Positions 22,613 through 26,947 of a stretch of DNA of 27,099 nucleotides are shown piece by piece. A model generated the notes under the pieces. That model made no database searches, was not told the DNA's origin, and saw only the letters and a list, made by a program, of their open reading frames with translations. The translations under genes were made by a program, and so were the position numbers. Each line of letters opens with the position of its first letter. Position 1 is the stretch's first letter. The stretch covers positions 1 through 27,099 of the IMG/VR virus record IMGVR_UViG_3300017527_001347; one strand, 5' to 3'. This DNA comes from a virus.

Positions 22613-24694
22613 ATGGGTGACTTTTTACATGGTGTTGAAGTAATTGATATTTCAACCGATAAGCGTCCAATCACAACTGTAGCATCAAGTACGATTGGAA
22701 TCGTTGGCACTGCTCCTGATGCTGATGAAAAAGCATTTCCATTAAACACTCCGGTTTTATTTACGGGTTATGACACAGATAAGTTAGCTAAATTAGGCAG
22801 TAAAGGCACATTGCCGTGGTCATTGGATTCTATTTTTCAGCAATTTGGGGCAAATATTGTTGTAATCAGAGTATATAGAACTCCTAGCGCTGAAAAAATT
22901 AGCACTTTAAAATCATTAACCCGTCCAATTGTTGTAGTGACTGAAGAAGATGTGGTTCGTGCTACAGGTAATGATAAAGATGCGGTTCAGAATACCGACA
23001 TTGTTGGTTTTGATAAGCTTTGGGCAGGCAGTGAAACATACGAAAAAAATGTCGATTGGCAACGCAATGGGCATGATATTGAATGGATTAGAAAATCTGT
23101 TGTGGAAACTGTGAATAAAGGTGCAGCGACAGTAGATGAGCTTCAACATCAAAATATACTCTTGAAAATTAAGCAAGTCTATCAAGGCGATACTATTTAT
23201 GTTGAAAATACTGATTATGAAAAAGATTCTGCAACTGGCGGTGTCAAGTGGCTTGGTACCAGTCAACCTAACGAAAGAAGCAATTATTATGTTTCATATG
23301 AGTACGGTAAACGACCTGCAACTGGGAGCAGCTATAAAGCTAGTTATTCTTATTATGATTATGCTAGAACAGAAGAAACGGTTACTCGTGTTTCAGGTTC
23401 AAATCTTGATGGTTTAGCTCGTTACGACATTGTTAGTTTTGAAAAAGTTTTTGTTGGTGACAAAACTTATGTGTTGAACACTGATTATCAGTTAGATGAA
23501 ACTAAGAATAAGATTGAATGGCTTAATAATAACACTGTAGATACGATTACTAGGCAAACTGGAACTGATATTGACGCTTTGTTGCATTCCGATATTTTGT
23601 TAGGTGTTGTAGCCATAACACAAGGTGCGGAAACATTTGTTAAAGATACTGATTGGCAAATAACTGTTGACGGCAAAATTGAATGGCTTACTGCAAACAA
23701 ACCGCTTGATGGTGAACAATATTCTGTTGAATATAGCTATGGTGACAGACCATCAGCAGGTACAAGCTACACAGTCAAATATAGTTACAAACTAGGCGAG
23801 CTTACCGCTATTTCTAAAGTGATAGGTCGTATAAATCCTGATAATGGTGGATACGAAGGGCTGCACGCTTTAAAAGCGGCTGAAAGTGCTGTGAAAATTA
23901 AACCTAAGATTATCATTGCGCCAGGATTCACGCAGTTCCGCGAGGTTGCAAATGAAATGCTTGATATAGCCGAGAGATTAAAAGCGATTGCCTTAATTGA
24001 TGCTCCTAATACTACAGATGAGCAAGCGATAAATTATCGTGGGCAGTTCAATAGTAAACGTGCATATATTATTGATCCTTGGCATAAATATCTGAATGGC
24101 TCAGAAGTAGATATACAGCCTACATCTGCAAAAATTGCAGGACTTATTGCCAAAACTGACGCTGAGAAGGGGTTTTGGTATTCACCCTCAAACAAAGAAA
24201 TTAACGCTTGTTTAGGACCTGCACGTCCAATTGAATTCGCTATTGGTGATAAAAATTCTCGTGCCAATAAACTAAATGAAAATGAGGTAGCAACGATTAT
24301 CACTGCGGACGGCAGTTACCGATTATGGGGTAATCGAACTACATCCAATAACCCAAAATATATTTTTCTGAATGCTGTTCGGGTTGATGATCTTATTGAA
24401 GAAAGTTTGCAAAAAAGCATTTTATGGGCTGTCGATCAAAATCTAAGTAAAACGTTTTTTGATGCTGTGGTAGATGCTGTGAGTGCTTATATTCGTAGCT
24501 TAGCTGCAAAAGGGGCGGTGATAATCGGACAAAAACAGCCTTGTTGGATTGATCAAGAGTTAAATACTGTAGATAGTTTGCTTCAAGGTAAAGCGGTGTT
24601 TAGTTTTGATTATGATCGACCTTATCCAGCAGAGCATATCACCCTACAACGCTTTATTAATCATGAGTATCTGAAAACTATTGTTGAAGCGTAA
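22613..24694 (+). CDS. FI: Tail sheath protein FI with a large inserted repeat cassette
   Basis: The protein is 693 residues against about 396 in P2 FI. Residues 1 to about 105 (FLHGVEVIDISTDKRPITTV, VASSTIGIVGTAPDADEKAF, FQQFGANIVVIRVYRT) and about 396-693 (GRINPDNGGYEGLHALKAAE, IIIAPGFTQFREVANEMLDI, PTSAKIAGLIAKTDAEKGFW, SPSNKEINACLGPARP, YRLWGNRTTS, ILWAVDQNLSKTFFDAVVDA) are the typical sheath core. Between them, residues about 111-395 are an insertion of four related units, arranged as two copies of a short-plus-long pair. Each unit has a D[IV] strand, a T[YF] strand, DY or DW, and an [EK]WL strand. The contracting core should sit inside with the insertion on the outside. GGAGG precedes the ATG. 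Confidence 0.93.
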   Translation: MGDFLHGVEVIDISTDKRPITTVASSTIGIVGTAPDADEKAFPLNTPVLFTGYDTDKLAKLGSKGTLPWSLDSIFQQFGANIVVIRVYRTPSAEKISTLKSLTRPIVVVTEEDVVRATGNDKDAVQNTDIVGFDKLWAGSETYEKNVDWQRNGHDIEWIRKSVVETVNKGAATVDELQHQNILLKIKQVYQGDTIYVENTDYEKDSATGGVKWLGTSQPNERSNYYVSYEYGKRPATGSSYKASYSYYDYARTEETVTRVSGSNLDGLARYDIVSFEKVFVGDKTYVLNTDYQLDETKNKIEWLNNNTVDTITRQTGTDIDALLHSDILLGVVAITQGAETFVKDTDWQITVDGKIEWLTANKPLDGEQYSVEYSYGDRPSAGTSYTVKYSYKLGELTAISKVIGRINPDNGGYEGLHALKAAESAVKIKPKIIIAPGFTQFREVANEMLDIAERLKAIALIDAPNTTDEQAINYRGQFNSKRAYIIDPWHKYLNGSEVDIQPTSAKIAGLIAKTDAEKGFWYSPSNKEINACLGPARPIEFAIGDKNSRANKLNENEVATIITADGSYRLWGNRTTSNNPKYIFLNAVRVDDLIEESLQKSILWAVDQNLSKTFFDAVVDAVSAYIRSLAAKGAVIIGQKQPCWIDQELNTVDSLLQGKAVFSFDYDRPYPAEHITLQRFINHEYLKTIVEA
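22943..23797 (+). repeat. Duplicated two-unit cassette inside the sheath gene
   Basis: Residues about 111-250 and 256-395 of the sheath align along their length at an offset of about 143-146 residues. Matching points are TDIVGFDKL with YDIVSFEKV, KQVYQGDTIYVENTDY with VAITQGAETFVKDTDW, and YGKRPATGSSYKASYSY with YGDRPSAGTSYTVKYSY. Within each copy a short unit and a long unit are themselves related. Confidence 0.85.
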
Positions 24695-24712: not shown

Positions 24713-25246
24713 ATGGCTATACCAACAAACACAGGCGTAAGAATGCCTTACGGATTGCGGAATTTTGCTATGCACGTTACCAATGTTGGTTACGCAGGTG
24801 TAGTAACAAAGGGCAAATTACCTGATGTTGCCTCAAAAACAGAAGATCATCGCGCTTCTGGTATGGATTTTAATCGTAAGTTGGATCACGGTTTAGAAGA
24901 TTTAGAATCTACTTTTTCATTAGCCGAATTTAACGATGCCATTATGAAACAAGTGAGCACATTAAATGCTTCTGAAACGGAATTAAAATTTTACGGAGCA
25001 TTGAATGATGATGCTTCACCAAAAGCAATCAAGGTGGAAGCAACCCTTAAAGGAGCGATTCATAAAGGTGAGCCTGGCGATTGGGAATCTGGCGGCAAAA
25101 CTGAAACTTCATTCACTGTTAATTGTAAATTTTACGAATTAAAAATTGATGCAGAGGAAATTTATCACATTGATAATGATAATTTAATTCGTAGAATTGA
25201 CGGCGTTGATCAATTGGAATCCATTAGAGCGGCGATAAAACTGTAA
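24713..25246 (+). CDS. FII: Tail tube protein FII, copy 1
   Basis: The 177-residue protein belongs to the P2 FII major tail tube family: PYGLRNFAMHVTNVGYAGVV, DHRASGMDFNRKLDHGLEDL, then ATLKGAIHKGEPGDWESGGK with KTETSFTVNCKFYELKID, and the closing DNDNLIRRIDGVDQLESIRA. P2 FII is about 172 residues. A strong site GGAAGGAG lies 7-10 bases before the ATG, as expected for a highly expressed structural gene. It follows the sheath by 18 bases. Its stop overlaps the start of a second tube-family gene. It forms the rigid inner tube on the tape measure. Confidence 0.9.
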   Translation: MAIPTNTGVRMPYGLRNFAMHVTNVGYAGVVTKGKLPDVASKTEDHRASGMDFNRKLDHGLEDLESTFSLAEFNDAIMKQVSTLNASETELKFYGALNDDASPKAIKVEATLKGAIHKGEPGDWESGGKTETSFTVNCKFYELKIDAEEIYHIDNDNLIRRIDGVDQLESIRAAIKL

Positions 25247-25758
25247 TGAGTTTACGGCTACCCAGCTCCCTGAAAAACTTTAACCTTCATATTGAAGGCG
25301 TGGGTTATGCTGGAGTTATTGAACAGTTTGTGCCGCCAAAAATAACGGTGCAAACTGAAGAATATCGCGGTTCAGGTTTGGATACGCCTGTATCTTTGGA
25401 TATGGGTATTGCAGCTATGCAAGCTTCATGGACTATGGCGGAATGGTCTTCAGATGTCCAAAATTTAGTTGGGGTTGTTGGCGGTGGGACTTCGCTAACT
25501 GCTTATGGCGCAATTAACGATGATTCCAGTTTATCCGCCATTGGCGTGAAAATTACTATGCGTGGGCAAATCACGGAATCTGATCCTGGCACATGGAAAG
25601 CGGGTGTAAAAACGCAACATAAATATACTATGAAGTTGCGGTATTTAAGGATTGAGACAGATGGCAATATCAATGTAGAAATTGATATTGAAAATATGAA
25701 ACGTGTGATTAATGGTGTTGATCAAATAGAAATATTACGCGATAAAATTAAATTTTAG
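25246..25758 (+). CDS. Tail tube protein FII paralogue, copy 2
   Basis: The 170-residue protein is a second member of the FII family: LPSSLKNFNLHIEGVGYAGV, EEYRGSGLDTPVSLDMGIAA, VKITMRGQITESDPGTWKAG, KYTMKLRYLRIETDGNINVE, ENMKRVINGVDQIEILRDK. It shares only a minority of residues with copy 1 but keeps every family landmark in the same order. The EYRGSG, MGI and EID..NM..VINGVD motifs appear nearer to P2 FII than copy 1 does. The start is coupled by TAATG to the stop of copy 1, so both are made together. Both may build the tube, or one may form a terminal ring. The sequence does not decide this. Confidence 0.85.
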   Translation: MSLRLPSSLKNFNLHIEGVGYAGVIEQFVPPKITVQTEEYRGSGLDTPVSLDMGIAAMQASWTMAEWSSDVQNLVGVVGGGTSLTAYGAINDDSSLSAIGVKITMRGQITESDPGTWKAGVKTQHKYTMKLRYLRIETDGNINVEIDIENMKRVINGVDQIEILRDKIKF

Positions 25759-26124: not shown

Positions 26125-26270
26125 AGGATCAACTTGACGAAATTATAGCGGATATTGCTTTTATTTTTCATTGGACTTTTACGGAACTCAATAGAATGCC
26201 AGTAGGCGAATTAATAAAATGGCATAAAAAGGCACGTTCTAGGTTTAAAGATGCGCCAAGGTTATTTTAA
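25768..26270 (+). CDS. E': Tail assembly chaperone E+E' (-1 frameshift product)
   Basis: A -1 shift at 26,094-26,100 would join 111 codons of gpE to 56 codons of the -1 frame, giving about 167 residues and ending at TAA 26,268-26,270. The shifted tail reads QEGDLEDQLDEIIADIAFIF, HW, then TELNRMPVGELIKWHKKA. It carries the family's typical 'DIA.IFHW....L..M...EL..W..KA' of P2 E'. This tail has no start codon of its own in a suitable place. P2 makes E and E+E' in the same way, and the longer form acts as the link to the tape measure. The identification rests on clear motif match plus the slippery site. Confidence 0.88.
26094..26100 (+). promoter_or_regulatory. Slippery heptamer T_TTT_TTC for -1 frameshift
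   Basis: In the gpE frame the codons read ggT TTT TTC, a X_XXY_YYZ heptamer. The -1 frame has a TGA at 26,085-26,087 and the 0 frame has TAG at 26,122-26,124, so a productive shift can only occur between these points, and the heptamer lies there. P2 uses a similar T_TTT_TTG site. Confidence 0.82.
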
Positions 26271-26947
26271 TGTATGAAATGTATCAAATACAATTTGTTA
26301 AAGGTGATTATTCTTACCGCCAATATCTTGCTAATCTACAAAAATGTGATTCTTATGTTGAGCATCATTTTAATTCTTCTAAGAAAAAACAAGCTAAATA
26401 TTGCTTAGGTTTTGTAGGTAGTAATGCTTCACAAAAAAGCCAAGATTTAGCTGCATATTATGCCCAAAAAATCCATGAAACTTTTGGAGTTCCTAAAGGT
26501 GGTAGGAATGGTGTAATGCAAGCTCACAAAGGTGGGCGTGGAGATGGAAATCTTGTCCATACTGATATGTGTGCCATATTGCTTGAGCCATTATTTGGTA
26601 GTAATCCACAACATGCAAAAATTATAAAAAGTGAACAAGGACAAGAGCAATTAGCTAAAGCACTTGTGGATACCATTGTACATTTTTTTCCAAAAGGTGC
26701 AAAGATAGCTTTTTCTGTTGGACATAAATATAAAAAATCAAAGCCTTTTGATAGGGGGGCAAAACTTTGGGGCGGCGGTTATGAAGCAGATTATGCGGAA
26801 TTAGTTTTAAATAAGGCTGCTGATATGTTAAGGAATATTAGAAACCAAATCAATGATAACGGAGAAAATATTTTTGTGCCAAGCCCTTTAGTAAATCATA
26901 TCAAAGGTATATGCGAAGTTTATAAAAATAAATGCTCGAAAATTTAA
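26270..26947 (+). CDS. Amidase_3-type N-acetylmuramoyl-L-alanine amidase, circularly permuted motif order
   Basis: In this 225-residue protein all landmarks of zinc Amidase_3 enzymes can be found but in rotated order. The half that is normally C-terminal comes first: YSYRQYLANLQKCDSYVEHH with FNSS (His33 as the usual second zinc His of '[ST].H.N'), SQDLAAYYAQKI, and CAILLEPLFGSNP with Glu106 as the catalytic Glu of 'iLvE..F.sN'. The half that is normally N-terminal follows: AKIAFSVGHKYKKSKPFDRG with His152 (usual 'DPGHGG..PGA' region), then GGYEADYAELVLNKAADML with Glu172 as zinc ligand. The family breaks peptidoglycan between muramic acid and L-alanine. Here it may be an endolysin or tail-associated enzyme. 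The start is set by TAATG overlap with the E+E' stop; no signal peptide is visible. The end overlaps the portal gene by 16 bases. Confidence 0.72.
   Translation: MYEMYQIQFVKGDYSYRQYLANLQKCDSYVEHHFNSSKKKQAKYCLGFVGSNASQKSQDLAAYYAQKIHETFGVPKGGRNGVMQAHKGGRGDGNLVHTDMCAILLEPLFGSNPQHAKIIKSEQGQEQLAKALVDTIVHFFPKGAKIAFSVGHKYKKSKPFDRGAKLWGGGYEADYAELVLNKAADMLRNIRNQINDNGENIFVPSPLVNHIKGICEVYKNKCSKI

Follow-up and report, generated by a model that had tools for sequence, protein, structure and literature searches.

An Amidase_3-type phage protein with a circularly permuted order of its active-site segments, a probable endolysin

Zinc amidases of the Amidase_3 family carry their active-site motifs in the order GH-E-HxN-E. 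Is a protein in which these motifs appear in another order a rearranged member of the family, or a truncated amidase followed by something else? The question is raised by a 225-amino acid ORF (P0001; 26270 to 26947, plus strand) in the window, the stretch of 27,099 nucleotides from virus record IMGVR_UViG_3300017527_001347 that we analyzed. The initial annotation had read this ORF as a circularly permuted enzyme, and all the motifs that it named are present in the permuted order: EHHFN at residues 31-35, LLEPLF at 104-109, SVGH at 149-152, FDRGA at 160-164 and YEADY from 171. The residues expected to build the active site therefore follow each other as H33 (in EHHFN), E106 (in LLEPLF), H152 (in SVGH) and E172 (within YEADY). 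The ATG overlaps the stop of the preceding ORF in the sequence TAATG (26268-26272), from which it had been argued that no missing N-terminal copy is available upstream. The same order recurs in independent contigs and genomes, and in one phage homologue (L003) a stop immediately precedes the ATG; because of both observations we rejected an assembly artefact or a lost upstream copy, and the original argument holds. Several homologues begin where P0001 has its second ATG (26279), which in the alignment immediately precedes the strand 'Y-x-V-x-F'; the true N terminus may therefore be three residues shorter. The choice of start codon leaves the permutation argument intact.

We compared P0001 and its homologues with the Pfam Amidase_3 profile (PF01520), both as they are and after rotation, with the C-terminal piece put first. 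In its natural order P0001 matches profile positions 58-172 through residues 16-136, with 48.4 bits against a gathering cut-off of 27, and thus passes as a family member by score. Both Pfam and PHROGs matches end before or at the GH piece. Rotation widens the Pfam match to positions 11-172 and raises it to 55.1 bits, whereas three P0001 controls in which the C-terminal piece was shuffled score 47.1-47.5 bits with no extension. The rotated form of L001 likewise matches positions 10-173 with 45.6 bits, compared to 38.5 as it is. In a further set of seven homologues, six gain 3 to 12 bits upon rotation and match from profile position 5-11 (rotated and natural order, respectively: L004, 51.8 and 46.4; L006, 60.1 and 48.4; L009, 51.9 and 43.0; L010, 55.5 and 52.1; L007, 47.4 and 38.6; L015, 55.7 and 44.9). 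In the seventh, L003, the match is not extended (39.5 and 39.1 bits). For single sequences, the gains from rotation are modest.

Local models of canonical phage amidases gave a larger number of controls. With a model of six canonical-order phage amidases and 1,000 shuffles of the C-terminal piece, rotated P0001 reaches 60.4 bits; its shuffles average 51.5 bits, and only one of them equals it. For L006, L015 and L003, not a single shuffle out of 1,000 equals the rotated protein. When the model comprised 80 canonical phage amidases, with 500 shuffles per protein, most permuted members exceeded all or nearly all shuffles (L003 and L015 were equaled by five each), and three were not clearly above them (L007, L012 and L013, with 56, 17 and 108 shuffles as high, respectively). 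The comparison between profiles points in the same direction. The rotated family aligns with canonical columns 3-183 (score 137.7) and the family in its natural order with columns 67-183 only (score 110.9). On its own, the C-terminal piece (a profile of 13 sequences) matches canonical columns 3-44 (E-value 1.1e-5 for that one comparison). On the basis of the shuffles and the profile comparison we rejected a GH motif that occurs by chance.

The active-site residues can be compared directly with those of characterized bacterial amidases. Rv3717/Ami1 binds zinc through H35, E70 and H125 and has E200 as its catalytic residue (PMC11579945). Homology with Rv3717/Ami1, CwlV, 4rn7 and AmiA/B/C makes H152 (26723-26725, plus strand, like the next three codons), E172 (26783-26785) and H33 (26366-26368) the putative zinc ligands of P0001, as counterparts of Ami1 H35, E70 and H125, and E106 (26585-26587, in LLEPLFGSN) the putative catalytic glutamate, as counterpart of E200. 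Two zinc histidines, a zinc glutamate and a catalytic glutamate would thus all be available in P0001, although its segment order differs from that of these enzymes; nor are a signal peptide, an AMIN domain or a regulatory helix insert evident in the permuted family. In a joint alignment of 17 permuted and 12 canonical proteins, none of the four residues varies among the 17, and each coincides with the invariant residue of all 12. The assignment of E172 is also supported by the alignment of the rotated family profile with 4rn7, which extends from 16 to 179 and places E172 opposite the glutamate of YEKDLNL, whereas the unrotated profile aligns from residue 64 only. Three further residues, E177, D161 and R17, are invariant in the permuted clade only; E177 is unconserved in the canonical rows, and together with the loop SVGHK-K-x-D-x-G it distinguishes the permuted proteins. 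In L012 and L013, the most divergent permuted members, the zinc loop is lengthened between D161/G163 and E172 by insertions of approximately 20-30 residues.

An AlphaFold2 model of P0001, built from an alignment of 11 sequences (pLDDT 89.1, pTM 0.82), displays the same rearrangement. Its predicted elements are strands (E) and helices (H) at E6-9, H14-23, E28-32, E45-49, H55-72, E82-84, H92-95, E101-106, H113-120, H122-139, E145-150 and H172-189, followed by a tail helix of low confidence. As a control we modeled in the same way L060, a canonical-order phage relative encoded on the same contig as L008, with elements E4-8 and H26-36 and then E42-44, H54-65, E72-76, E89-94, H98-115, E119-125, H133-138, E143-147, H154-161 and H164-176. 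The P0001 list is that of L060 with the first two elements (beta1 and alpha1) shifted to the end. In VIA-align, residues 1-143 of the model superpose on solved Amidase_3 domains from residue approximately 40 onward, with Z 10.8-13.8 to 24 amidase entries (best, 4rn7, Z 13.8 over 136 residues at 2.2 A; 1jwq, 43-179, Z 12.9), and the control aligns with solved amidases over its full length (1-178, Z 16-22; for example, 1xov, Z 22.5). When superposed in sequence order, the model gives TM-scores of 0.45-0.50, normalized by query length. Foldseek searches against the PDB and viral models indicate the same family. The predicted fold is therefore that of Amidase_3, with 1-143 superposed and the other two elements in circular shift, rather than the unlike fold that the initial annotation had named as evidence against its reading.

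The gene falls into three parts. Residues 1-143 (26270-26698) correspond, by Pfam and superposition, to the second canonical segment, from beta2 to the last helix, and contain H33 and E106. The linker helix noted earlier in front of the GH strand (about 121-140) is this last helix of the canonical domain. Residues 144-190 (26699-26839) correspond, by profile and model, to the first canonical segment, with the GH strand beta1, the zinc loop and alpha1, now C-terminal. The tail (residues 191-225; 26840-26944) lies outside the conserved domain, with a pLDDT of about 50-62, a predicted helix at 206-223 and no conservation among the homologues. We also considered a relation to class III extradiol dioxygenases, since the model aligns end to end (2-189) with 7txy_E (Z 8.8, rmsd 4.0) and gives Z 6.4-7.7 with further structures of this class. 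We rejected it, as both the sequence and the residues of the active site agree with Amidase_3, and we take the likeness to reflect a shared general alpha/beta arrangement.

Overall, we found 17 distinct permuted proteins, P0001 and 16 others with the same order, in phage contigs and gammaproteobacteria. The phage members from IMG/VR are L003-L007 and L009-L013, L004 and L005 being the identical protein. The others come from a Methylococcaceae MAG (L001), from genomes G117 (L015) and G065 (L016), from three loci (L046-L048, reread as L056, L054 and L055, respectively) and from a plasmid of Candidatus Thiodictyon syntrophicum. They form one clade in a tree with 22 canonical proteins (support 99/99) and in a tree with 79 (SH-aLRT 99). 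The gammaproteobacterial members cluster together (96/88), nested in the phage diversity. The permuted enzyme proposed for the window thus turns out to be shared by phages and gammaproteobacteria, and several independent permutations find no support in the tree, a result that could change with other canonical relatives, as these were sampled by similarity search. The incidence of the gene among genomes around L001 is low (3 out of 398 in the phylum, 4 out of 369 in the class and 1 out of 301 in the order, L001 included each time), and a tblastn search with three queries detected no permuted member in 50,697 INPHARED phage records. The GH motif comes first in all 80 related canonical phage amidases that we fetched (73 recognized by pattern and seven by reading), and no tandem-duplicated intermediate was seen among the loci that we read. 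Some members carry additional sequence. In L001 a Glucosaminidase domain is fused to the N terminus of the permuted amidase, and in L015 a Pesticin-like lysozyme stretch, below the curated cut-off, follows at the C terminus. An extension of approximately 40 residues behind the permuted domain, roughly 'IRVxxGxxxxxxxIDxDxxVxWDPVxGxLxI', occurs in L001, L004, L015, L016, L054 and L055, and P0001 is without it.

The gene neighborhoods differ between the members. In the window, which carries genes of a contractile-tail phage of the P2/Mu type, P0001 comes after those for the tail sheath, the tail and chaperone-like proteins. The contig ends 152 bases behind P0001, and no lysis cassette was seen before this end. 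The L006 amidase is encoded upstream of an ORF that weakly matches a holin (E-value 1.7e-4), with a predicted opposite-strand ORF between the two. In L009 it is followed by ORFs of 58 and 105 amino acids, each resembling, as read by eye, a single-helix membrane protein. In L054, L055 and L056, three chromosomal loci of gammaproteobacterial genomes, the permuted amidase adjoins a gene that by eye is pcnB-like; no phage genes were found nearby and the amidase has no evident signal peptide. Other genes of the window have features of their own. A gpD-type baseplate hub (PF05954; 921-2270, minus strand) ends in an OmpA-family domain (PF00691, E-value 2e-22), an unusual combination in the hub of a contractile tail. 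The tail sheath (22613-24694, plus strand; 693 amino acids) contains an insert weakly matching an Ig-like major tail protein family, and among the phage relatives listed for it the sheaths of Wolbachia phage WO come closest, with approximately 50% identity over half the length. The adjacent genes at 24713-25246 and 25246-25758 (plus strand) encode proteins that resemble paralogs, the first of which matches PHROG 55, labeled head closure.

These results bear on what the GH piece is and on whether one chain forms the active site. The C-terminal piece of P0001 alone has no Pfam match and individual C-terminal pieces reach no more than 0 to 7 bits with canonical models, as might be expected if a truncated Amidase_3 domain were followed by a second domain of unrelated origin, or by a motif that arose by chance. 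The initial annotation itself had named the former as a possible refutation. We find this reading scarcely credible and already largely refuted: the profile of the piece matches the beginning of the canonical profile, E172 aligns with the zinc glutamate of 4rn7, the piece is conserved in 17 proteins with H152 and E172 invariant, and it supplies exactly the first two elements that the fold is missing. Domain swapping commonly accompanies permutation, and the two pieces of P0001 are linked by a short loop. The beta1-alpha1 unit of a second copy could therefore complete the site in a swapped dimer, in which case the functional unit would not be a permuted monomer. The monomer model is nevertheless confident in both pieces, with a pLDDT of 95-98 for residues 141-190, and we consider such a dimer very improbable.

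A second group of alternatives accepts the permuted fold and concerns its function. P0001 could be devoid of amidase activity, either as a pseudoenzyme or with a structural or regulatory function in the tail, as its place behind the tail genes and the pcnB-linked chromosomal copies lacking an evident signal peptide might suggest. The invariance of the four catalytic and zinc positions, also in divergent members, the fusions to other wall-hydrolase domains in L001 and L015 and the holin-like neighbor in L006 argue against this, and we regard it as highly implausible. Most likely, P0001 is instead an active zinc N-acetylmuramoyl-L-alanine amidase. Because the gene follows tail genes and no lysis cassette appears before the contig ends, its product might be a lysin associated with the virion, which opens the wall when the phage enters, and not an endolysin acting at exit. 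This is unlikely, albeit worth keeping in mind, given the holin-like or membrane ORFs downstream of the amidase in L006 and L009; moreover, no permuted homologue was seen fused to a tail protein. With such ORFs beside some of its homologues, P0001 is probably an endolysin. This endolysin role is proposed for the phage members of the family.

Canonical phage endolysins of PF01520, such as the Croceibacter phage P2559S amidase (L042) and PlyPSA (1xov), have the same fold and the same four active-site residues. Canonical and permuted phage amidases are both small free-standing proteins with LLEPFFGSN and ELHFD/N motifs, and they differ in the GH strand, which comes first in the former and last in the latter. 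The canonical chain order (beta1 with GH, alpha1 with Glu, HxN, catalytic Glu) is replaced by HxN, Glu, GH, Glu in all 17 proteins, and because of this order we class P0001 as a permuted variant and not as a canonical member. The plasmid protein of Candidatus Thiodictyon syntrophicum (WP_100923257.1, plasmid pTs485), a database match 63% identical to L016, belongs to the same permuted family and has no adjoining phage genes; its record says only N-acetylmuramoyl-L-alanine amidase, the permutation being unrecognized. The NCBIfam equivalogs CwlD, AmiB and Rv3717 score below their curated cut-offs on P0001 (CwlD, 28 bits against 221; the others lower), and no NCBIfam model covers the permuted family. 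Natural circular permutants with swapped active-site order are known in another family of wall enzymes, NlpC/P60 (YaeF, LRAT; PMC6403190, PMC10318531), which are papain-like cysteine enzymes unrelated to zinc amidases such as P0001. Our literature search, with subscription journals mostly outside its reach, returned these and unrelated uses of permutation, and neither a permuted endolysin nor a permuted member of the very common Amidase_3 family. Since NlpC/P60 is the only wall hydrolase family in this literature with natural permutation, no NCBIfam model exists and Pfam and PHROGs matches stop before or at the GH piece, the P0001 family is apparently an undescribed and new permuted form of an established family of enzymes.

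Taken together, P0001 is very probably a natural circular permutant of an Amidase_3-type zinc N-acetylmuramoyl-L-alanine amidase, of single origin and most likely an endolysin. The beta1-alpha1 unit, with the GH zinc histidine and the zinc glutamate, would have been transferred from the front of the chain to its back. The old C-terminal helix (122-139) would now lead through a five-residue loop into the old beta1 (145-150), with the new termini placed between alpha1 and beta2. The rearranged chain would keep its fold and its zinc site of four residues, with H152, E172 and H33 as ligands and E106 as general base, and P0001 would cleave the MurNAc-L-Ala bond as a phage endolysin. The permutation would have arisen once, and inheritance and exchange would then have spread it among phages and gammaproteobacteria. 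A broader scenario, quite possible if just short of probable, is that one ancient permutation founded a separate Amidase_3 lineage, mobile among uncultured phages and gammaproteobacteria. In the bacteria the gene would have become fixed at chromosomal sites adjoining pcnB, its product lacking an evident signal peptide and perhaps domesticated for lysis or for recycling of the wall. Fusions with a glucosaminidase in front and a lysozyme-like domain behind may have become possible through the new termini.

If confirmed, the permutation would mean that a zinc site spanning both halves of a chain survives re-wiring. Profile-based annotation conceals permuted amidases, because they resemble truncated ones. 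The permuted family provides material for asking why and how phage enzymes permute, and it offers new end positions for natural domain fusions.
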